Origin: Pseudomonadaceae bacterium SI-3
Lineage (GTDB): Bacteria > Pseudomonadota > Gammaproteobacteria > Pseudomonadales > Pseudomonadaceae
Direction of reading: 5' to 3'
Length of the DNA: 64,000 nucleotides
NCBI GenBank assembly: GCA_004010935.1
Contig: CP026511.1
Coordinates: 2,480,001-2,544,000 of the forward strand
The notes beneath the pieces were generated by a model, which ran no database searches, was not told where the DNA came from, and saw nothing but the letters and a program-made list of their open reading frames with translations. Of this stretch, positions 1,481-31,822 are shown in pieces (position 1 is the first letter of the stretch; every line of letters starts with the position of its first letter). The position numbers were made by a program, and so were the translations under genes.

Positions 1481-1890
1481 GAGCGGCCTCTCTAATTTTT
1501 CTGCTTGTCGGAGCCTGACCGGACATGGACAGGACATGGAACGATCTTAGGCAGCCAAACCGCTTGCCCGGAATGCCCCCAAGGAACAGATGCGCTCCTC
1601 ATTTGGTAGTACATGCCAAAACCGGTGCGCCGCCACCACGGGCACCGGGTGCCCCAAAAGGCGCGCCATGCGCCTGAAAAAAACCGCCAGATTAGGGCGC
1701 CCCAGCTCACATGCAATTGACCATGCGCAAGGGCAGTCCGCTGCCCAGCGAATGTTTTTTTCATGCAACAAAAACGCGACCAAATGCCCGGAAAAACGGC
1801 CCGAAAGTCTCATTAGTCGAGCGTCAAAAGCGCCTTAGCTTCGAGCCGCAACATTGGTTTTCCCAAAACGTTTGCTTAAGGAGATATGCC
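1481..1890. other. Intergenic region between exaC and pqqA
   Basis: A 410-bp divergent region. It must hold the promoters of exaC (minus strand) and the pqqA operon (plus strand). The only recognisable element is the CTCATTTGGTA motif at 1598-1608. Short open frames on both strands here have no ribosome-binding site and no recognisable similarity, so no gene is called. Confidence 0.6.
1598..1608. promoter_or_regulatory. Putative alcohol-oxidation regulator box (copy a)
   Basis: CTCATTTGGTA matches the consensus CTMCYTTRGTA (10 of 11) built from promoters across this cluster. Its centre is about 123 bp from the exaC start codon, the same distance as in front of pedH and pedF. It probably binds one of the two LuxR-type response regulators encoded here; the assignment is inferred. 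Confidence 0.5.
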
Positions 1891-1965
1891 ATGCAGTGGA
1901 TCGATCCGGACTTCTGCGACTTGCGTCTGGGCTTTGAAGTCACCGCGTACGTTTACGTGCGCTGA
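1891..1965 (+). CDS. pqqA: PQQ precursor peptide PqqA
   Basis: A 24-residue peptide that supplies the glutamate and tyrosine crosslinked to form PQQ. It carries GFEVTAY, in which Glu16 and Tyr20 have the canonical spacing (GFEVTMY in most PqqA). The start has a strong ribosome-binding site (AAGGAGA) about 7 bases upstream. It is followed by pqqD and pqqE; pqqB and pqqC, normally next, are absent. It may be a second pqqA copy in the genome, since complete PQQ synthesis needs pqqB and pqqC from elsewhere. Confidence 0.92.
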   Translation: MQWIDPDFCDLRLGFEVTAYVYVR

Positions 1966-2020
1966 GCCCCCACCGGCGTGTTCGCAACCGCCTTCACGCC
2001 GGTCGAGCGAGGAAATGGAC

Positions 2021-2314
2021 ATGACCGCAACAAGTATTTCGCCGCTGAGCTGCTATGAGATTCGCTCGCCCTTTCTGTTTCGCTGGGAAGAATCGCAGCA
2101 AGCGCACGTACTGCTCTATCCCGAGGGCATCGTCAAGCTGAACGCCACCGGTGGAGAGATATTGAAGCGCTGCGACGGCAAGACCCGTGTCGTTGAGCTA
2201 ATCGAGCAATTGGCCCAAAGCTACAACGCATCCGATATCGACGCGATCCGTAACGGTGTCCTGAATTTCCTGGAGGTATCTCATGGCAAAGGCTGGATCC
2301 GCGCTAAGGCTTGA
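2021..2314 (+). CDS. pqqD: PQQ biosynthesis peptide chaperone PqqD
   Basis: PqqD binds PqqA and presents it to the radical SAM enzyme PqqE. The 97-residue product has the family's winged-helix precursor-recognition fold, recognisable from YPEGIVKLNATGGEIL and the following helix region. The ATG at 2021 is chosen because GAGGA lies 7-8 bases before it; the in-frame ATG at 2015 is too close to that site. Its last 32 bases overlap pqqE, which suggests translational coupling. A separate pqqD paralogue next to an aldehyde dehydrogenase is also known in the P. putida ped cluster. Confidence 0.93.
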   Translation: MTATSISPLSCYEIRSPFLFRWEESQQAHVLLYPEGIVKLNATGGEILKRCDGKTRVVELIEQLAQSYNASDIDAIRNGVLNFLEVSHGKGWIRAKA

Positions 2315-3428
2315 TGGCAACGGCAACCCCGTCTGGCTGCTGCTCGAGCTGACCTATCAGTGCCCGCTGCAATGCGTGTTCTGCAGCAATCCACGCAACT
2401 TCGCCGATTACCGCCAAGACGAGCTGAGCACCACCGAGTGGATCGATGTAATGGCCCAGGCCCGCGCCATGGGTGCGATGCAGATCGGCTTCTCGGGCGG
2501 CGAGCCCACGCTGCGCAAGGACCTCGAAACGCTGGTCGCCGAGGCTGACCGCATGGGCTACTACACCAACCTGATCACTTCCGGCATCGGCCTGACCGAG
2601 GCGCGCCTGCGCGTCCTGAAGGATGCCGGGTTGCGCCACATCCAGCTCGGTTTTCAGTCCACCGACCGTGACGTGGCGCGTGAACTGGCCGGTGTCGACG
2701 CCTGGGAGCGCAAACTGCGCATGGCGCGGCTGATCAAGTCAATGGACTTCCCCATGGTGCTCAACGTACCGATCACCCGGCAGAACATCGCTCAGGTGCC
2801 GGACATCATCGAGTTCGCCGTCGAACTGGGAGTCGAGTACCTCGAGCTGGCGAACGTGCAGTACTACAACTGGGCGCTGCTCAACCGCGACGCGCTGATG
2901 CCGACCCATGCCGAACTGCAGAAAGCCGAAGATGAGGTGCGCAAGGCACGCGAGCGGTTCGGTGATCGCCTGACCATCTTCTTCGTCATCCCCGACTATT
3001 ACGAAGGTCGTCCCAAGGCGTGCATGAACGGCTGGGGCGCGATTCACGTCACCATCGCGCCAAACGGCAACGTGCTGCCCTGCTCCCAGGCCAGCACCTT
3101 CAAAGACCTCGCCTTCCCCAACGTGCGGCAGCAACGACTGGAGCAGATCTGGCACGACTCGCCGGTGTTCAACCTCTACCGTGGCGACACCTGGATGCCA
3201 GAACCCTGCCGCAGCTGTGACGATAAGGAAAAGGATTTCGGCGGGTGCCGCTGCCAGGCGCTGCTGCTGACCGGCAACGGCGCCAACACCGATCCGGCCT
3301 GCAGTAAATCCCCACATCACCAGCTGATTCGCCAGGCCGTTGAATTGGCGCAGGATGCCACGCGCCCGCAAGGCACGCTGATCGCCCGACAGGCCAGTCA
3401 GGGGGTGGAACTTGAAACTGCCCCATGA
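2283..3428 (+). CDS. pqqE: PqqA peptide cyclase PqqE (radical SAM)
   Basis: PqqE makes the C-C bond between Glu and Tyr of PqqA, the first step of PQQ synthesis. The 381-residue protein shows the radical SAM cluster motif CxxxCxxC (Cys27, Cys31, Cys34 in YQCPLQCVFC), a GGEP motif in the barrel, and a C-terminal SPASM domain with cysteines in CMNGWG, LPCSQAS, CRSCDD and GGCRCQ for auxiliary iron-sulfur clusters. The start at 2283 follows GGAGG by 7 bases. The length and motif set are normal, so the enzyme looks functional. Confidence 0.95.
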   Translation: MAKAGSALRLDGNGNPVWLLLELTYQCPLQCVFCSNPRNFADYRQDELSTTEWIDVMAQARAMGAMQIGFSGGEPTLRKDLETLVAEADRMGYYTNLITSGIGLTEARLRVLKDAGLRHIQLGFQSTDRDVARELAGVDAWERKLRMARLIKSMDFPMVLNVPITRQNIAQVPDIIEFAVELGVEYLELANVQYYNWALLNRDALMPTHAELQKAEDEVRKARERFGDRLTIFFVIPDYYEGRPKACMNGWGAIHVTIAPNGNVLPCSQASTFKDLAFPNVRQQRLEQIWHDSPVFNLYRGDTWMPEPCRSCDDKEKDFGGCRCQALLLTGNGANTDPACSKSPHHQLIRQAVELAQDATRPQGTLIARQASQGVELETAP

Positions 3429-3510
3429 TTCGTTCAGCGGCACTGTCAGCGCCGGCCTCGCACTCACGCTCGGTTGCTACTTGCTGCTGCGTTTCTGGCT
3501 GGTGAACTGA
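3412..3510 (+). CDS. Possible 32-residue single-span membrane peptide
   Basis: An open frame starting with TTG at 3412, inside the last codons of pqqE, preceded by a G-rich GGGGTGG. The product has a short polar N-terminus (KLPHDSFSG) and a hydrophobic stretch (SAGLALTLGCYLLLRFWLV) long enough for one membrane span. It stops 2 bases before the start of the next membrane protein, which fits a coupled reading frame. There is no family match that I recognise; it could also be chance coding in the gap between two operon genes. Confidence 0.4.
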   Translation: MKLPHDSFSGTVSAGLALTLGCYLLLRFWLVN

Positions 3511-3512
3511 GC

Positions 3513-4016
3513 ATGCAGATGCTGATCCTCGATCTGCTGGCCCGCTACGCGCACCTGCTGTTCGCGTTGGTCTGGGTCGGCCACAACTATGCCAACTTCA
3601 TCCAGAACCCACGCTTCGTGCCACTGCAGAACGGCATCGACACCGCCACGTTGAACCACGATCTGGAAGCGCGGATGAAACGTGAGCACGGCATATTCCG
3701 CTATGCCTCCGTGGTGGTCTGGGTGTCCGGCATGTTCATGCTCTGGCAACGCGGCTGGCTGGTCGATGCGCTGCTGCTGCAGGGTCCGCTGGCGGTGATC
3801 GGCCTGGGCGCCTGGATTGGCACGCTGATGTTGCTCAACCTCTGGCTGGTGCTCTGGCCGCATCAGAAGAAGCTGCTCGGCTTCATCCCGGCGACTCTCG
3901 AAGAGCGTGTGCGCTGCTCGCGGATAACCTTCCTCTCGTCCCGCAGCAACACGATCCTGTCCTTTCCCCTGCTGTTCCTCATGGCGAGTGGTGGTCATGG
4001 CCTGCATCTCTTCTGA
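3513..4016 (+). CDS. Membrane protein resembling the urate oxidase (PuuD) N-terminal domain, DUF989-like
   Basis: A 167-residue integral membrane protein with about four hydrophobic segments. Its N-terminal ARYAHLLFALVWVGHNYANF resembles the start of the membrane domain of PuuD-type urate hydroxylases, where conserved His residues of the span may bind haem; here only this domain is present, with no cytochrome c tail. The ATG at 3513 is preferred over a TTG at 3474. It overlaps the next gene by 20 bases (3997-4016). In this operon it may anchor or deliver electrons for the flavoprotein and PQQ-related enzymes, but that is inference. Confidence 0.6.
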   Translation: MQMLILDLLARYAHLLFALVWVGHNYANFIQNPRFVPLQNGIDTATLNHDLEARMKREHGIFRYASVVVWVSGMFMLWQRGWLVDALLLQGPLAVIGLGAWIGTLMLLNLWLVLWPHQKKLLGFIPATLEERVRCSRITFLSSRSNTILSFPLLFLMASGGHGLHLF

Positions 4017-5097
4017 GCCGACCGAGCGCTACAGTTTTGCCGCCGGCCCGGCAATGCTGCCGAGTGCAGTGCTAACGCAGATTCAGAATGAATTGCCGGA
4101 CTGGAACCACAGCGGCTTCTCCTTACTTGAACAACCGTTCACCAGCCCCGCGTTCAAGCAGCTGATGGCCGAAACCGAACAGAACTTACGCAAGCTGCTG
4201 TCGGTTCCTCACAACTATCGGGTGCTCTTTGTTCAAGGTGGCGCCTCGGCGCAGTTCGGCCTGGTGCCGCTCAACCTGCTGCAGCCCGGGCAGAGCGCCG
4301 ACTATCTCGAGAGTGGCCACTGGGGGCGCAAAGCGATTGTCGAGGCGCGTCGACATTCCCCGGTCAATGTCATCGCCAGCGGTGCGGCAGATGGCTTCAG
4401 CGCCCTGCCGAAGCGGGAATACTGGCAGCTCGATCCTCACGCCGGTTATTGCCACATCACTAGCAACGAAACTGGAAACGGGCTTCAGCTACGCGAATTT
4501 CCAGAAGTGCCGGTGCCGCTGGTGGCTGACATGACGTCGGACTTTCTTACCCGGCCCATTCCGGTAGAGCGCTTCGGCCTGATCTACGCCAGCGCTCAGA
4601 AGAACTTCGGCATCGCCGGGCTCTGTCTACTGATCGTGCGCGAGGATCTTTTGCGATCACCGCAGCGTGGCCTCCCAGCGGTATTCAGCTACAAGGTACA
4701 GGCCGAGCAACAGAGCCGCTTCAACACGCCACCGACCTTCGCCCTGTATGTCGCTGCGTTGATGCTGCGCTGGATCGAGGATCAGGGCGGACTCGCCGTA
4801 ATGGCAGCACATGCGCGCGAAAAGAGTCAGCGGTTATACCGCTGCATTGAGGCTGGAAGCTTCTACCGCTGCCGCCAACAGGCCGCGGATCGCTCGAGCG
4901 TCAATGTCTGCTTTGAACTGGCAGATGCGCGATTGCTCCAGCCCTTTCTTGCCGATGCAGAGCGCAACGGCCTGTTTTATCTGCAGGGGCACAGCCATGT
5001 TGGCGGCGTCCGCGCCAGTCTTTACAACGCCATGCCTCTGGCGGGAGTGGATCGACTGGTCGCCTTCATGCGTGATTTCGAGAGCCGTCATGGCTAA
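3997..5097 (+). CDS. SerC-like PLP-dependent aminotransferase
   Basis: A class V aminotransferase of 366 residues, clearly in the phosphoserine aminotransferase family: FAAGPAMLP at the N-terminus, the lysine that binds PLP at Lys202 in SAQKNFGIAG, and GGVRASLYNAMP near the end, which keeps the arginine for the substrate alpha-carboxylate. However, the SHRG block that binds the phosphate of phosphoserine in E. coli SerC reads PFTS here (residues 47-50), and GHRVVGG reads GHSHVGG (His332-Ser333). The enzyme should therefore use a different, non-phosphorylated substrate. It overlaps the next gene by 8 bases. Start ATG at 3997; an upstream GTG at 3988 is possible. Confidence 0.85.
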   Translation: MACISSEPTERYSFAAGPAMLPSAVLTQIQNELPDWNHSGFSLLEQPFTSPAFKQLMAETEQNLRKLLSVPHNYRVLFVQGGASAQFGLVPLNLLQPGQSADYLESGHWGRKAIVEARRHSPVNVIASGAADGFSALPKREYWQLDPHAGYCHITSNETGNGLQLREFPEVPVPLVADMTSDFLTRPIPVERFGLIYASAQKNFGIAGLCLLIVREDLLRSPQRGLPAVFSYKVQAEQQSRFNTPPTFALYVAALMLRWIEDQGGLAVMAAHAREKSQRLYRCIEAGSFYRCRQQAADRSSVNVCFELADARLLQPFLADAERNGLFYLQGHSHVGGVRASLYNAMPLAGVDRLVAFMRDFESRHG

Positions 5098-5935
5098 GCC
5101 GAACAGTGTCCGGACAATCAGCAGCCGTCTGGCGCAAAGGCTCGCGATGGACCTTTGCTGCTTGGCATGTCACTTCTCGACTTATCAAGCCAATCAACCG
5201 GTCACGGTAATGGGCCTGCCGTTCCCCTCGCCGTTAGGTATCGCCGCAGGATTCGACCGTTACAGCAGGCTCGGTCGCCGCGCGGCGTTGCTGGGCTTTG
5301 GTTTCAATGAAGTGGGCAGCCTGACGGCAGATGGTCTCGCCAGGCTGTCGCCTGTAAAGCATGGTCAAGCACGTCTAGGCCTGAACCTGACTCTGGACGC
5401 CAGCCAATCTTGGACTGAGACCTGCGCCCTGCTACAGACTGCCTGGCCGCTCGCGGACTATCTGGTGCTCAATCTGATCGGCCCTGCCAGCGTCCGGCTG
5501 GTCCAAGACCCTGATCGGTTGCACCGACTGCTCTCGCTGTTGCGACATCAGCAACACGCGCTGAACACAGCGGGAAATCGCAGTGTGCCCCTGCTCGCAA
5601 AGTTGCGTTGCCTGCCGGAACAGGTGCCTGAGTACCTAACCGAAGTGCTGCTGGAGTTGGGTTTCGACGGCTTGATCGCTGCGCATGACCCAGGGCCGCC
5701 AGCGACACGGCAGCGTTACCGCGCCTGGCAGGATGACCGTCAACAGATGCAAGCCTGCATGCAGATCGAACAGTTGCACCGACTGTGCGGCACCGATCTG
5801 GCGTTGATCTCGGTCGGAGGAGTACAGACCGCAGGCCACCTCCAGGCGCGCCTCGACGCAGGGGCCCAGCTTATCCAGGTGCATGGAGCCCTGATGCGTC
5901 AGGGGCCATGGCTTGCTCGGCGGCTATGCGGATGA
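5090..5935 (+). CDS. PyrD-like FMN oxidoreductase, divergent
   Basis: Resembles class 2 dihydroorotate dehydrogenase: PVTVMGLPFPSPLGIAAGFDR matches the FMN-binding N-terminal part of PyrD, GFGFNEVG the next strand, and ISVGGV with QVHGAL the C-terminal phosphate-binding part. At 281 residues it is shorter than PyrD (about 336). The active-site loop SSPN of E. coli PyrD reads IGPA here, so the catalytic serine is lost, and the conserved lysine of GLDK is Arg57. It is unlikely to make orotate. The start ATG overlaps the SerC-like stop (ATGGCTAA), which points to coupled translation. The substrate is unknown; the operon suggests a PQQ-related or alcohol-related one. Confidence 0.78.
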   Translation: MAKPNSVRTISSRLAQRLAMDLCCLACHFSTYQANQPVTVMGLPFPSPLGIAAGFDRYSRLGRRAALLGFGFNEVGSLTADGLARLSPVKHGQARLGLNLTLDASQSWTETCALLQTAWPLADYLVLNLIGPASVRLVQDPDRLHRLLSLLRHQQHALNTAGNRSVPLLAKLRCLPEQVPEYLTEVLLELGFDGLIAAHDPGPPATRQRYRAWQDDRQQMQACMQIEQLHRLCGTDLALISVGGVQTAGHLQARLDAGAQLIQVHGALMRQGPWLARRLCG

Positions 5936-6074: not shown

Positions 6075-7853
6075 TCAGCGCTTGGCGACTACCTGCTCCT
6101 TCGGCAGTTTGAAGGTCCAGACCATGCCGCCCTGGTTGAAGTCTTTGATGCGCTTGGCAACCTCGCCACCCCACAGTGGAACTGCACCGCCCCAGCCAGA
6201 AAGGACCGATACGTACTGTTCGCCATCCATTTCCCAGGTAACCGGAGAACCGATCACGCCGGAGCCGGTGTTGAACTCGTAGACCTTCTCACCCGTCTTG
6301 GCGTTGAACGCCATCAGGAAGCCTTCCGGGTTACCGGTGAACACCAGGTTGCCCTTGGTTGCCAGAACGCCGCCCCACAGTGGCGCGTAGTTCTTGTAAC
6401 GCCAGACTTCCTTGCCGGTTTTCGGGTCAATGGCGCGAAGCACGCCAATGTATTCCTCGTTCAGCGGGTGGATAGTGAAGCCAGCGCCCAGGTAAGCCGC
6501 GCCTTTCTTGTAGGCGACGCCTTCGTTCCAGATGTCCATGGCCCATTCGTTAGACGGCACGTAGAACAGTCCGGTGTCCTGGCTGTACGCCATTGGCATC
6601 CAGTTCTTACCGCCGAGGAAAGACGGCGCAACAGTCACGGACTTGCCCTTGTCCGCATCGCCTGGTGCGCCAGGACGGTTGGCGTCGTCATAGATCGGAC
6701 GTCCATCCTTATCCAAACCCTTGGCCCAGGTGATCTTGTCCACGAACGGGAAGCCGCGAATGAATTTGCCGTTGGTCCGATCGAGCACGTAGAAGAAGCC
6801 GTTACGGTCCGCGGTACCAGCGGCCTTGATGGTCTTACCACCATCCTGGTAGTCGAAGGAGATCAGTTCGTTGACACCGTCATAGTCCCAGCCGTCATGC
6901 GGCGTAGACTGGAAGTGCCACTTGATCGAGCCGTCGTCCGGGTCCAGCGCCAAACGCGAAGACGAATACAGGTTGTCGCCTGGGCGCAGGTGCGAGTTCC
7001 ACGGTGAGGGGTTGCCGGTACCGAACAGCAGCGAATCGGTGTCTGCGTCGTAGTAGCCACCCAGCCAAGGCGCTGCACCGCCGGTCTTCCAAAGATCGCC
7101 CGGCCAGGTTTTACCGGCTTCGCCGCCAGAGATGCCGTTATCGACCTTTTTGCCATCCTTCATCACGTAGCCCATGTGACCTTCGACGGTCGGACGGGAC
7201 CACAGCAACTCACCATTCTTGGGGTCGAACGCCTGGATCATGCCGACTACGCCGAACTCACCGCCGGCCAGGCCAGTGATCAACTTGCCTTTTACCACCA
7301 TCGGCGCGGCAGAAATCGAGTAGCCAGCCTTGTAGTCAGCGACGGTCTTTTTCCAGACGACCTTGCCGGTGTCCTTGTTCAGCGCGACCAGCTTGGCATC
7401 CAACGTGCCGAAGATCACCAGGTCGTCATACAGCGCCACGCCACGGTTGATCACGTCACAGCAAGGCATGATGCCGTCCGGCAGGCGGGCGTCGTACTGC
7501 CACAGTTCCTTGCCGGTACGGGCGTCGATCGCAAATACGCGCGAGTAGGAGCCGGTGACGTACATCACACCATCTTTAATCAGCGGCTGCGCTTCCTGGC
7601 CACGTTGTTTTTCACCCCCCAGGGAAAAACCCCAAACCGGGCGCAGCTGGCTGACGTTCTCAGTGTTCAGTGCATCGAGTGTGCTGTAGCGCTGGCCTTG
7701 CAGCCCCAGGCCGTTAGTAACGATCTGATCGGTGGACTTGGCGTCATCGAGGATTTCCTGATCGGTGACTGCCCATGCCGACACGCTGGACACGGCCATG
7801 GCGGCGCAAAGCGCTGTCAGGGCGAAGGGCTTGCGAAGACCGGTGTGCTTCAT
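6075..7853 (-). CDS. pedH: Lanthanide-type PQQ-dependent alcohol dehydrogenase, PedH-like
   Basis: Periplasmic quinoprotein that oxidises primary alcohols and passes electrons to cytochrome c. The 592-residue product has a signal peptide ending near VSAWA, eight-bladed propeller repeats, and the vicinal disulfide pair in PCCDVIN. The catalytic Asp323 lies in WDYDG; the extra acidic residue two places later (Asp325) is the hallmark of lanthanide-dependent enzymes of the XoxF/PedH type. The start ATG at 7853 has AGAGG about 8 bases upstream. A second, calcium-type enzyme is encoded at 20597-22456, so this strain should switch between the two according to rare-earth supply. Confidence 0.94.
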
Positions 7854-7967
7854 TGCGGCTACCTCTACGGGTTCATTGTTATCGTCGCCGGGAACTTTTC
7901 CCGGTCTAGTAGCGATTCTTAGATCTAGCCGCTCCTGTAACAATTACACGCAGTACCGATTTTCCTC

Positions 7968-20596: not shown

Positions 20597-22456
20597 ATGA
20601 CAACAACACCCCCCCTGGGCAGCAAACGCCCTCTCGCCATCGCCGTTCTGATTGGCGGTCTCTCACTCAGCGGCTTGGCAGACGCCAAGAACGTCACCTG
20701 GGACGACATCGCCAACGACCATCTTTCGACCGGAAACGTATTGCAGTACGGCCTGGGCACCAATGCCCAGCGCTGGAGCCCGCTGAATCAGGTGAATGAT
20801 GAAAACGTCTTCAAACTGACGCCGGCCTGGTCCTTTTCCTTTGGTGACGAGAAGCAGCGGGGACAGGAATCCCAGGCCATCGTGCATGACGGTGTGATCT
20901 ACGTGACGGGCTCTTACTCGCGCGTGTTCGCGCTCGATTCGCGCACAGGCAAACGGCTTTGGAGCTACGCGCACCGATTGCCTGCGGACATCCGCCCGTG
21001 CTGCGACGTCGTCAACCGAGGTGCGGCGATTTATGGTGACAAGATCTACTTCGGCACGCTGGATGCCCAGGTGGTCGCGCTGAACAAGGACACCGGCAAG
21101 GTCGTCTGGAAGAAGAAGTTCGGTGACCACGGCGCGGGCTACACCATGACTGGCGCACCAACCCTGATCAAGGACCAGAAAAGCGGCAAGGTGCTGTTGA
21201 TTCATGGCAGCTCGGGCGACGAATTCGGAATCGTCGGCAAGCTGTTCGCCCGCGATCCAGAGACCGGCGAGGAAGTCTGGATGCGTCCCTTCGTCGAGGG
21301 CCATGTGGGCCGTCTCAACGGCAAAGACAGCACACCGACCGGGGACGTCAAAGCGCCCTCCTGGCCTGATGACCCCAATTCGCCCACTGGCAAGAAAGAG
21401 GCCTGGAGCCAGGGTGGCGGCGCGCCTTGGCAGAGCGCGAGCTTCGATGCCGAGACCAACACCATCATCGTCGGTGCGGGAAACCCGGCGCCCTGGAACG
21501 GTTGGGCGCGCACCGCCGATGGCGGCGAGCCGAAGGACTACGACAGCCTCTATACCTCCGGGCAGGTCGGTGTCGACGCCACCACGGGCGAAGTGAAGTG
21601 GTTCTATCAGCACACCCCCAACGATGCCTGGGATTTCTCTGGCAACAATGAGCTGGTGCTGTTCGACTACAAAAACAAGGATGGGAAAACCGTCAAGGCG
21701 ACGGCTCATGCCGACCGCAATGGCTTCTTCTACGTGGTCGATCGCGAGGATGGCAAGTTGCAGAACGCCTTCCCTTTCGTCGACAACATCACCTGGGCCA
21801 GCCACATCGACATGAAGACCGGACGACCTGTCGAGAATGAAGGTCAGCGCCCACCGCTGCCGGAGCCAGGCGAAGCGCACGGCAAGTCAGTCGAGGTTTC
21901 ACCGCCCTTTCTGGGCGGTAAAAACTGGAACCCCATGGCCTACAGCCAGGACACCGGGCTGTTCTACGTCCCCGCCAACCATTGGAAAGAGGACTACTGG
22001 ACCGAAGAGGTCAGCTACAAGAAGGGTAATGCCTATCTCGGTCAGGGCTTCCGCATCAAGCGCATGTACGACGATCACGTCGGCATTCTTCGCGCCATGG
22101 ATCCCACCACGGGCAAAGTTGCCTGGGAGCACAAGGAGCCGCTGCCGCTCTGGGCGGGTGTGCTTGCCACCCAGGGCAACCTGGTATTCACCGGGACCGG
22201 TGATGGTTACCTGAAAGCGTTCAACGCTAAAACCGGCGAAGAGCTGTGGAAATTCCAGACCGGCAGCGGAATCATCGCCCCGCCCATCACCTGGGAGCAG
22301 GACGGTGAGCAATTCATCGGAGTGACCGTCGGCTACGGTGGCGCCGTGCCGCTGTGGGGCGGCGACATGGCAGCGCTGACCAAGCCTGTCGCGCAAGGCG
22401 GCTCGTTCTGGGTGTTCCGGATCCCGAGTTGGGACAACTCGACCGCTAAACGCTAA
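20597..22456 (+). CDS. pedE: Calcium-type PQQ-dependent alcohol dehydrogenase, PedE/ExaA-like
   Basis: Periplasmic quinoprotein ethanol dehydrogenase, 619 residues, with a signal peptide ending near LADA and the vicinal cysteines in PCCDVVN. The catalytic Asp346 sits in WDFSG; position 348 is Ser, the calcium-type state, in contrast to Asp in the PedH-like copy. GGAVPLWGG near the end matches the family. Start ATG has AAGGGA about 8 bases upstream. A GC-rich hairpin follows the gene. Confidence 0.95.
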   Translation: MTTTPPLGSKRPLAIAVLIGGLSLSGLADAKNVTWDDIANDHLSTGNVLQYGLGTNAQRWSPLNQVNDENVFKLTPAWSFSFGDEKQRGQESQAIVHDGVIYVTGSYSRVFALDSRTGKRLWSYAHRLPADIRPCCDVVNRGAAIYGDKIYFGTLDAQVVALNKDTGKVVWKKKFGDHGAGYTMTGAPTLIKDQKSGKVLLIHGSSGDEFGIVGKLFARDPETGEEVWMRPFVEGHVGRLNGKDSTPTGDVKAPSWPDDPNSPTGKKEAWSQGGGAPWQSASFDAETNTIIVGAGNPAPWNGWARTADGGEPKDYDSLYTSGQVGVDATTGEVKWFYQHTPNDAWDFSGNNELVLFDYKNKDGKTVKATAHADRNGFFYVVDREDGKLQNAFPFVDNITWASHIDMKTGRPVENEGQRPPLPEPGEAHGKSVEVSPPFLGGKNWNPMAYSQDTGLFYVPANHWKEDYWTEEVSYKKGNAYLGQGFRIKRMYDDHVGILRAMDPTTGKVAWEHKEPLPLWAGVLATQGNLVFTGTGDGYLKAFNAKTGEELWKFQTGSGIIAPPITWEQDGEQFIGVTVGYGGAVPLWGGDMAALTKPVAQGGSFWVFRIPSWDNSTAKR

Positions 22457-30628: not shown

Positions 30629-31822
30629 ATGCGCCCTCTTTCTTTCCGCATCCGTTGCTTGATCACCCTCGCCTGTTGCGCCGCTTTCGTCAGTGACGCA
30701 GGCGCAGCGGAGCCAGAACTCTCGGTGCGCATCGGTTACCTAGGCTACCGCCCGGACCCAGGCCCTCTGCTATCCAACGTGATCCCCGAGCCGGTTGATG
30801 CCGGCTTGAGCGGTGCCGAACTGGCCATTGCCGACAGCAACAGCACAGGACGTTTCCTCAAACACAGCTATGCCTTGAATAGCATCACGGCCGAAACACC
30901 AGAGCAACTCCAGAACGAGGCCCGGCAGCTGCATGATCAGGGGGTTCGATTGTTCGTCGTGAATGCGCCCGCTAAAAGCCTGGAAGCGCTAGCCTCTGCC
31001 ATGCCGGACAGCCTGCTGATCAACGCCGGCAGCCCCGATGACGAACTGCGAACGACCCGCTGCCTGGGTAACGTGCTGCATACCCTTCCAAGCCGCAGTA
31101 TGTTGGCCGACGCGCTGGGGCAGTTCCTTGCCGTGCGCCGTTGGAACCGCTGGCTGTTGATCAGCGGGCCGACCGAGGAGGATCAGGCCTATGCCGAGGC
31201 GATCAAGCGTGCCGCCAAACGGTTCGGCCACAAGATCATCGAAGAGAAGCCCTGGACCTTCGATAACGACCAGCGGCGCACAGCTCAAGCCGACATGCCC
31301 CTGTTCACTCAAGCTGGCGAGTACGACGTGGTCGTGGTGGCTGATGAGCGCGGCGACTTCGGCGAGTACGTGCCCTACCACACCTGGCTTCCGCGGCCGG
31401 TAGTGGGCACGCAGGGCCTGATCCCGACAGGCTGGCATAAAACGGTCGAAACCTATGGCGCTGCGCAGCTCCAGAAGCGCTTCGAAGCACATGCCAATCG
31501 CTGGATGAACGACCGCGATTTCGCTGTCTGGATCGGCGTGCGCAGCCTCGCCACGGCAATCACCAAGCTCGGCACCGCCGACCCCGACGCAATACGCCAG
31601 ATATCGCTGAGCGAGACGCTGCCGGTCGATGGATTCAAAGGCCGCAAGCTGACGTTCCGGCCCTGGAACGGCCAGCTGCGCCAGCCGATCCCGCTCGTGC
31701 ATCCACGTGGTCTGGTATCCAACTCGCCCCAGGAGGGCTTCCTGCACCCCACCAGTGAACTGGATACCCTGGGGTTCGATCGTCCGGAGAGCAAATGCCG
31801 GTTGAGCGAGGCGAGCCGATGA
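30629..31822 (+). CDS. ABC substrate-binding protein of the PQQ alcohol dehydrogenase system
   Basis: A 397-residue exported protein with a type I binding fold, of the family that always accompanies PQQ-dependent alcohol dehydrogenase loci (TIGR03863-type). Signal peptide ends near GAGAAE-like sequence (SDAGAAEPE). First gene of an ABC operon with the Sel1 protein, beta-propeller, ATPase and permease. AGGAG 8 bases before the ATG. The transported compound is unknown. Confidence 0.86.
   Translation: MRPLSFRIRCLITLACCAAFVSDAGAAEPELSVRIGYLGYRPDPGPLLSNVIPEPVDAGLSGAELAIADSNSTGRFLKHSYALNSITAETPEQLQNEARQLHDQGVRLFVVNAPAKSLEALASAMPDSLLINAGSPDDELRTTRCLGNVLHTLPSRSMLADALGQFLAVRRWNRWLLISGPTEEDQAYAEAIKRAAKRFGHKIIEEKPWTFDNDQRRTAQADMPLFTQAGEYDVVVVADERGDFGEYVPYHTWLPRPVVGTQGLIPTGWHKTVETYGAAQLQKRFEAHANRWMNDRDFAVWIGVRSLATAITKLGTADPDAIRQISLSETLPVDGFKGRKLTFRPWNGQLRQPIPLVHPRGLVSNSPQEGFLHPTSELDTLGFDRPESKCRLSEASR

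Follow-up and report, generated by a model that had tools for sequence, protein, structure and literature searches.

Organization of the accessory pqq operon

The analysed window (64,000 nucleotides of the Pseudomonadaceae bacterium SI-3 contig CP026511.1) contains a six-gene operon at 1891-5935, in which open reading frame and family searches place, in order, pqqA, pqqD, pqqE, a DUF989 membrane protein gene corresponding to half of PuuD, and genes for paralogues of SerC and PyrD. Family models confirm all six of the families originally predicted for these genes from the sequence. The first gene, pqqA2 (1891-1965, plus strand as for all six), encodes the precursor peptide MQWIDPDFCDLRLGFEVTAYVYVR (TIGR02107, 7e-08; PF08042, the Pfam PqqA family, 3e-10), and the predicted Glu-Tyr spacing is indeed E-x3-Y, as in canonical PqqA. 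It is followed by genes for the peptide chaperone PqqD2 (2015-2314; TIGR03859 above cut-off, PF05402) and for PqqE2 (2283-3428), a paralogue of the radical SAM/SPASM PqqA cyclase that reaches 507 bits against TIGR02109 (cut-off 381). The last three genes encode a DUF989 integral membrane protein (3513-4016; PF06181, Urate_ox_N, formerly DUF989, 1e-10, model positions 153-238 of 295), the SerC-like PLP aminotransferase SerC2 (3997-5097; PRK05355, 447 bits against a cut-off of 253; PF00266) and the PyrD-like flavoprotein PyrD2 (5090-5935; PF01180, DHO_dh, 6e-14). The overlapping or abutting frames that had been noticed correspond to three overlapping pairs (pqqD/pqqE, membrane gene/serC and serC/pyrD).

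The same searches found neither pqqB nor pqqC inside the six-gene operon. A canonical pqqA-B-C-E-G cluster with ercA lies just outside the window, at 2471.8-2478.4 kb of the contig, ending ~1.6 kb short of the start of the window and containing the sole pqqC found in the genome (2476.6 kb); pqqB and pqqC are therefore absent from the accessory operon only, and the original prediction that both are missing holds for the operon and fails for the genome. That prediction had also named, as findings that would together count against it, a complete second pqq cluster and a lack of effect on PQQ when the paralogues are deleted; the first of these is present, save that pqqD has no separate call.

The operon is flanked upstream by an aldehyde dehydrogenase gene on the minus strand and downstream by one of the window's two PQQ alcohol dehydrogenases (6078-7943, minus strand; TIGR03075, 796 bits), which we take to be lanthanide-dependent from an Asp two residues past a WD. 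These flanks are as first described, but the lanthanide quinoprotein is not a conserved neighbor: among the window and 28 other stretches, some of them ended by contig ends, a close PedH homologue is restricted to the window, L046, L057, L063, L065 and L066, and none was found in L069 or L140-L144.

Distribution of the cassette

Of 27 relatives whose loci were retrieved with wide flanks, 26 have an identical gene order, which is also found in further families and on plasmids, and this recurrence indicates that the arrangement is not due to chance. In 19 of those 26 relatives the retrieved stretch contains canonical pqqB as well. SerC2, PyrD2 and DUF989 genes accompany pqqDE2 in all 26 pqqDE2-bearing stretches of L046-L072; a SerC-family gene is present in every cassette seen except that of genome G010, where only a cassette remnant persists. 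Two alphaproteobacterial plasmids carry the cassette, which is a single, portable unit across Gamma- and Alphaproteobacteria, plasmids included. Every cassette-bearing genome tested (18/18) also contains pqqC, so any sufficiency of the cassette on its own is hypothetical.

The SerC and PyrD genes might have been equally common outside any PQQ context, which would have spoken against the original prediction. For PyrD2, a survey of the context of 35 matches speaks against this: those in the window and in 27 of the retrieved stretches sit at pqq loci (one of them a remnant), and in the remaining seven DUF989 and SerC2 genes adjoin within the 1.5-kb flanks. DUF989 proteins divide sharply by similarity, with all five examined at >=59% identity sitting in a cassette and none of the 53 examined at <=48% identity adjoining pqqB-E.

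Features of the encoded proteins

The C-terminal sequence GFEVTAYVYVR of PqqA2 is identical in all 35 cassettes read (34 distinct; 28, 5 and 2 from three readings), and its YVYVR end differs from the MYFANR end of canonical PqqA. PqqE2 retains the radical SAM CxxxCxxC motif, the SPASM domain and the C-terminal cysteine pattern, scores above the equivalog cut-off, and shares 54% identity with the canonical PqqE of the same genome; PqqE2 sequences form a separate tree branch with support of 100/100.

SerC2 is 48% identical to the host's housekeeping SerC. In presumed E. coli numbering, W102, D174, K198, H328 and R335 are kept in 35/35 sequences, among them what we take to be the PLP lysine, the stacking Trp, the Asp and the carboxylate Arg. 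By contrast, H41 is Phe and R42 is Thr, Gly or Ser in all 35, and R329 is likewise replaced in all 35 (once by Lys); these three are presumably the phosphate-side residues of phosphoserine aminotransferase. Thus, SerC2 shares the PLP lysine and alpha-carboxylate arginine of that enzyme and, judged from its residues, is a predicted PLP fold-type I aminotransferase without the phosphate pocket. PQQ retains both amino nitrogens, so plain transamination by SerC2 does not fit; a transaminase has no obvious step in PQQ synthesis.

PyrD2 scores at most 103 bits against models of quinone-dependent dihydroorotate dehydrogenase (DHODH), all under their cut-offs (>=200). Its structural model (pLDDT 92.3) matches E. 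coli DHODH best (7t5k, TM 0.76), and K217 (35/35) and the GG residues (35 and 33 of 35), presumably the FMN site, are conserved, as is N172 (33/35). Most dihydroorotate residues of class 2 DHODH (PyrD) are missing, in contrast to this shared fold, FMN site and N172: N111 is found in 0/35, with its loop gapped in 32/35, N177 and N246 are each found in 0/35, and Ser occupies the position of Ser175 in 7/35 (we assume Ser175 to be catalytic and the Asn residues to bind orotate). PyrD2 is consequently best described, from alignment and model, as a DHODH fold with a predicted FMN site and an apparently remodelled substrate site. The analysis supports placing the SerC-, PyrD- and DUF989-type genes in a unit linked to PQQ, as distinct from an ordinary serC and pyrD.

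The DUF989 protein (167 aa) has PF06181 as its sole match. Its AlphaFold model (pLDDT 86.8) contains long helices at 2-31, 61-79, 91-122 and 129-160 plus two shorter ones, and structure comparison returned no similar solved fold at E<=0.001. H14, H24, E58, H59, C135 and H162 are present in 35/35 sequences, while across 36 database relatives H24 and C135 are merely nearly invariant. Set against the PuuD domains described in PMC4562309, the cassette protein corresponds to part of the DUF989 membrane domain, with four long helices instead of eight, HN and EHG motifs specific to it, and no C-terminal cytochrome c domain such as PuuD has. PuuD oxidises urate with cytochrome c (PMC4562309) and serves as the model for the mechanism of the cassette protein.

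Upstream sites and possible links to anaerobic respiration

A degenerate FNR/ANR-like site, TTGACCATGCGCAA (1717-1730, plus strand; 7/10), lies at -174, an aligned position common to the genus, although in this genome alone it is weak (shuffle p 0.515). Two further loci from Pseudomonadaceae have perfect FNR-type boxes, at -173. Outside Stutzerimonas, TTGATnnnnATCAA at >=9/10 precedes pqqA2 in eight of ten cassettes versus 0/26 canonical pqqA genes; in those ten loci such boxes occupy 17 of 753 segments of 250 bp, cassette boxes counted in. Stutzerimonas upstreams contain none at that threshold (0/25; best 6-8 of 10), and no FNR-type box was found upstream of the cassette in L140 and L150. A conserved promoter-like block at 1804-1816 (plus strand) reads AAAGTCnTATTAG in the genus alignment, with one mismatch here; it is the better of two loose matches in the window, where ~1 is expected by chance, and the neighbouring 18 kb contain none.

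Potentially relevant neighboring genes are found in three loci: NarG, NarK-like, NarX-like and NarL in L143, NrdD in L140, and UbiU (oxygen-independent ubiquinone synthesis) in L141. These come from ten neighbors picked by eye for seeming relevance, leaving out those of L065, L068, L142 and L144, and two of the regions (L143 18050-18829; L141 12131-14365) match only models under cut-off. No respiratory genes were seen among the annotated neighbors on plasmid L151, and neither plasmid host is, to our knowledge, a denitrifier. A nosZ match above cut-off is present in the SI-3 genome and in 32/34 cassette genomes versus 43/160 others, a difference confounded by kinship; within the genus the figures are 29/31 versus 18/25 (Fisher p=0.063, not significant). 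The cassette genomes G053 and G055 (the latter 73% complete) have no nosZ above cut-off.

Possible roles of the cassette

The predicted PQQ-related product or step is still the best reading of the gene content. The cassette probably allows the cell to finish PQQ, or a PQQ-level quinone, without oxygen, in parallel to the PqqB/PqqC route encoded next door, which requires oxygen. PqqE2 and PqqD2, given their family membership and retained motifs, would join the Glu and Tyr of PqqA2, and a peptidase coded elsewhere (PqqF/PqqG) would release the linked pair. PqqB is an oxygen-using hydroxylase; in its place the DUF989 protein may oxidise or hydroxylate the tyrosine ring, by analogy with PuuD, with water as the putative oxygen source and electrons passing to the respiratory chain. 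SerC2 would act on an amino-acid end of the intermediate. PyrD2, a predicted FMN-type TIM barrel, might dehydrogenate the reduced N-heterocycle in the way that DHODH treats dihydroorotate, and so take over the oxidations for which PqqC uses oxygen. Transcription may be under anaerobic FNR/ANR/DNR-type control, with boxes that are weak inside Stutzerimonas.

A fuller version of this scheme is offered tentatively, as possible rather than probable: the six genes would form a complete, horizontally mobile oxygen-independent PQQ branch, in which PqqB is replaced by a four-helix membrane dehydrogenase that uses water to hydroxylate the linked tyrosine, PqqC is replaced by a repurposed SerC and a repurposed PyrD for ring closure and oxidation, and the respiratory chain takes the electrons. 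Such a branch would be to PQQ what the UbiTUV route is to anaerobic ubiquinone synthesis.

Alternatively, the cassette could make a different PqqA-derived molecule by mycofactocin-like logic (e.g., a compound that binds metal, or a PQQ-like redox cofactor that is deaminated or otherwise tailored). Its own PqqA with the invariant end, its own PqqE branch, the transaminase-family enzyme in all cassettes but the G010 remnant and the company of pqqC in all 18 genomes tested agree with this. It is nonetheless unlikely, since the Glu-Tyr spacing is that of PqqA, an unsystematic look across lineages noticed no recurrent dehydrogenase, receptor or exporter gene next to the cassette, and the replacement of oxygen-using steps better accounts for the FNR-type boxes and for the neighbors in three loci. 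It is improbable that the extra PqqA, PqqD and PqqE simply raise the dosage of the canonical PqqB/PqqC route, for the benefit of this genome's quinoproteins, while the other three proteins do side jobs: the matching PqqA core and the proximity of both the canonical pqqBC and the window's pair of PQQ alcohol dehydrogenases would suit this, but the three genes stay with pqqDE2 in 26/26 stretches and across classes, and in the window their frames overlap. It is very improbable that the product is a peptide signal or another RiPP without relation to PQQ, for although PqqD- and PqqE-like proteins are known in other RiPP systems, several models of which score here, and no recurring protease gene was seen in the cassette, PqqA and PqqE exceed their PQQ equivalog cut-offs and all 18 cassette genomes tested have pqqC.

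Should the cassette prove to supply PQQ in the absence of oxygen, it would explain how denitrifiers can make this cofactor that way, add three unexplained reactions (a membrane hydroxylase/dehydrogenase, a non-SerC and a non-PyrD), and provide a 4-kb module for PQQ production in anoxic fermentations. The database names urate hydroxylase PuuD, phosphoserine aminotransferase and dihydroorotate oxidase are misleading and hide the cassette.

Comparison with known systems

The mycofactocin cluster combines a peptide, a PqqD-like protein, a radical SAM enzyme and a flavoprotein; the cassette follows a similar logic with another peptide and lacks a gene of MftE/MftD type. With canonical pqqABCDE the cassette has in common the PqqA, PqqD and PqqE families and the Glu-x3-Tyr arrangement, but it contains DUF989, SerC2 and PyrD2 instead of PqqB and PqqC, and the PqqE branch and PqqA C-terminus differ.

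Contrary to the initial impression that it had no description, the gene arrangement itself was published in 2025: section 2.9 of PMC12423496 describes 'pqqAED-puuD-serC-pyrD' clusters in Hyphomicrobium denitrificans (Hden_0548-0553), S. stutzeri, Halomonas, Methylophaga and Azoarcus. The named genes equal those of the window operon, and the classical pqqABCDE that accompanies those clusters in the genome has its counterpart here in the pqqA, B, C, E and G found. That section states that PqqC requires oxygen and that no PQQ is made anaerobically by K. pneumoniae or P. aeruginosa, which have the canonical genes alone; it also speculates that denitrifiers may synthesize PQQ independently of oxygen. 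In H. denitrificans the cluster is located close to genes for oxygen-independent UQ9 synthesis and NO reductase, and Hden_0551-0553 transcripts are lower in two regulator mutants (PMC12423496). The arrangement is given one paragraph there, and sections 2.8 and 2.9 contain no analysis of residues, promoters or phylogeny and no functional test; to this the present analysis adds the unit conserved across classes, the PqqE clade, the invariant PqqA end, the SerC2 and PyrD2 residues, the FNR-type boxes and the neighboring genes.

Organization of the operon and other pqq genes in the genome

By open reading frame and family calls, the six-gene operon of the original prediction is real, occupying positions 1891-5935 of the window on the plus strand in the order pqqA2 (1891-1965), pqqD2 (2015-2314), pqqE2 (2283-3428), a DUF989 membrane protein (3513-4016), the SerC-like SerC2 (from an ATG at 3997 to 5097) and the PyrD-like PyrD2 (5090-5935), with three overlapping joints. 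The pqqB and pqqC genes that had been called missing are indeed absent from this operon, but one canonical set stands just outside the window, where pqqA-B-C-E-G and ercA stop ~1.6 kb upstream of the window start (calls covered pqqA, B, C, E, and G). Since canonical pqq genes are also present, the cassette supplements the genes for PQQ synthesis and does not replace them. The window covers bases 2480001-2544000 of a 4.84-Mb genome in a single contig. One pqqC copy was found in the genome, together with three PqqE copies: PqqE2, the canonical copy (54% to PqqE2), and a third (53%) that sits with pqqG and ercA in an incomplete copy of the canonical cluster (stretch L013, 9670-14114; contig G000:C1, about 2372.7-2377.1 kb; 92, 72, and 92% to the canonical ones, respectively). 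A PedH-like stretch adjoins this set, and no pqqB or pqqC match was found across the 19-kb L013 stretch. A housekeeping SerC (48% to SerC2) and a housekeeping PyrD are encoded elsewhere in the genome. Further along, at 20597-22456 and 30629-31822, the window encodes another PQQ alcohol dehydrogenase and an ABC binding protein of the PQQ system, and kdp genes stand between its two PQQ alcohol dehydrogenases.

Distribution and linkage of the cassette

At E ≤ 1e-25, 35 of 194 relatives have a PyrD2 match, as do two genomes in a class sample of 369, both from the same genus. This search overlooks divergent cassettes, because a DUF989 search and the loci it led to revealed three further cassette genomes in the same sample (G312, G325, and G532). 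Among the 35 matches (27 fetched with wide flanks, seven with 1.5-kb flanks, and the window itself), the order pqqD2-pqqE2-DUF989-SerC2-PyrD2 was seen in 26/27 wide-flank stretches and DUF989-SerC2-PyrD2 in all seven with short flanks. On a draft contig of genome G022 (L052, one of the 26), the pqqD2 and pqqE2 matches are short and overlapping, as if the intervening stretch had been lost. The one exception, genome G010, is a natural loss of the cassette: PyrD2 is reduced to a 66-residue piece beside an aldehyde dehydrogenase (L070, 9567-9764), while pqqC and nosZ are retained. In S. stutzeri KOS6, PyrD2 matches as two overlapping pieces (L016, 10001-10835, the same as stretch L062), which suggests a frame break. 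Canonical pqqB shares the stretch with the cassette in 19/26 cases; the remaining seven are cut off by the end of a contig or, for L069, have their pqqC some 30 kb distant. Every one of the 18 tested cassette genomes contains pqqC, as do five tested genomes lacking an intact PyrD2 match.

DUF989 relatives (E ≤ 1e-15) occur in 112/369 class-sample genomes, cassette carriers included, and in 70/398 phylum-sample genomes. Of 58 loci examined from these samples (L080-L137, 1.5-kb flanks), all five with DUF989 at ≥59% identity are cassettes, and none of the 53 at ≤48% is flanked by pqqB, pqqC, pqqD, or pqqE; in one of the latter (L137), a neighbouring sequence weakly resembles the PqqG peptidase (24%). 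The ~170-residue DUF989 proteins outside a pqq context (L085-L137) form a widespread family. An order sample yielded DUF989 in 4/390 genomes at E ≤ 1e-45, and both new ones carry the cassette. The cassette was also found on two alphaproteobacterial plasmids (Methylovirgula sp. HY1 and Acidibrevibacterium fodinaquatile) with DUF989 proteins at 47-50% identity; near 50%, therefore, DUF989 alone does not decide cassette membership. In Methylovirgula (plasmid pHY1), the cassette is preceded by a CbpA/CbpB modified-peptide system (L150, 4980-6559). In the protein database (P0003-P0111 and P0126-P0228 range), PyrD2 homologues named by NCBI are mostly labelled 'phosphoserine aminotransferase' and the membrane-protein homologues 'urate hydroxylase PuuD'; both names are likely misannotations there.

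Remodelled proteins of the cassette

The PqqA2 C-terminus reads GFEVTAYVYVR in all 35 cassettes read (34 distinct); the canonical PqqA sequences recovered finish with GFEVTMY followed by FANR, ISNR, or IANR. In a 46-row PqqE tree, a single branch with 100/100 support splits 33 cassette from 13 canonical sequences, the latter gammaproteobacterial only.

In the residue numbering of E. coli SerC, His41, Arg42, and Arg329 are substituted in 35/35 sequences (34 distinct), and Trp102, Asp174, Lys198, His328, and Arg335 are retained in 35/35. Judged from these residues, SerC2 should be a PLP enzyme acting on a non-phosphorylated amino acid. The PyrD2 model (pLDDT 92) has class 2 DHODH as its best fold match (TM 0.76). 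Its FMN site keeps Lys217 in 35/35 and the GG motif in 35/35 and 33/35; Asn172 is present in 33/35, position 175 is Ser in 7/35, the NRMGFNN loop is gapped in 32/35, and Asn177 and Asn246 occur in none of the 35 aligned sequences. Among the protein-database relatives of PyrD2 listed (at least 120), one (P0101) combines aminotransferase and DHODH domains. The cassette DUF989 protein (167 residues, four long helices in the predicted structure) has H14, H24, E58, H59, C135, and H162 in 35/35, and its HN and EHG motifs were not found in five generic DUF989 relatives aligned. PuuD, a characterised DUF989 relative, oxidises urate with cytochrome c (PMC4562309).

Possible association with anaerobic metabolism

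Scanning 250 bp upstream of pqqA2 for the 10-position consensus TTGATnnnnATCAA revealed anaerobic-type boxes matching at 9-10 positions in 8/10 loci outside Stutzerimonas (L065, L068, L069, L141, L142, L143, L144, and L151, the exceptions being L140 and L150). Of the 753 250-bp windows in these ten loci, 17 contain a box at ≥9/10, cassette ones counted. No such box precedes any of 26 canonical pqqA genes (maximum 7) or 25 Stutzerimonas cassettes (four score 8, the others 6-7; L016/L062 counted twice), where a degenerate site sits at an equivalent alignment position, roughly as far from pqqA2. Profile searches of ten cassette neighbours, chosen by eye, identified NarG, NarL, and NarK-like and NarX-like proteins (L143), NrdD (L140), UbiU (L141), and a Crp/Fnr-family regulator upstream of the cassette (L150); a PqqF relative (L069) scored under its cut-off, and two more had matches under the model cut-off only. 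No respiratory genes were seen among the annotated neighbours in L151. Among the 194 relatives, nosZ exceeds its cut-off in 32/34 intact-cassette genomes versus 43/160 others, a comparison confounded by kinship; within the genus, the counts are 29/31 versus 18/25 (p = 0.063).

Interpretation and comparison with known systems

The operon is best read as an oxygen-independent PQQ-maturation cassette. The analysis shows the gene unit, how widely it occurs, the distinct PqqE branch, the remodelling of enzyme sites and, beyond Stutzerimonas, the anaerobic-type boxes, whereas we infer every catalytic step of the enzymes. The weakest point of this reading is SerC2, and because a transaminase-type enzyme has no obvious job in PQQ chemistry, a product that is PQQ-like but different from PQQ is still a live alternative.

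In its accessible sections, the ped-cluster review PMC12997753 does not contain the terms aminotransferase, serC, or dihydroorotate. The original prediction knew of no description of this arrangement, but the cluster type has already been published: the available portion of PMC12423496 reports this set of genes from H. denitrificans, close to genes for oxygen-independent ubiquinone synthesis and NO reductase, with Hden_0551-0553 transcripts reduced in two regulator mutants. The same paper lists S. stutzeri and further denitrifiers as carriers and speculates that the last PQQ steps are possible without oxygen. As far as that portion allows, the window operon therefore belongs to a published, uncharacterised cluster type.
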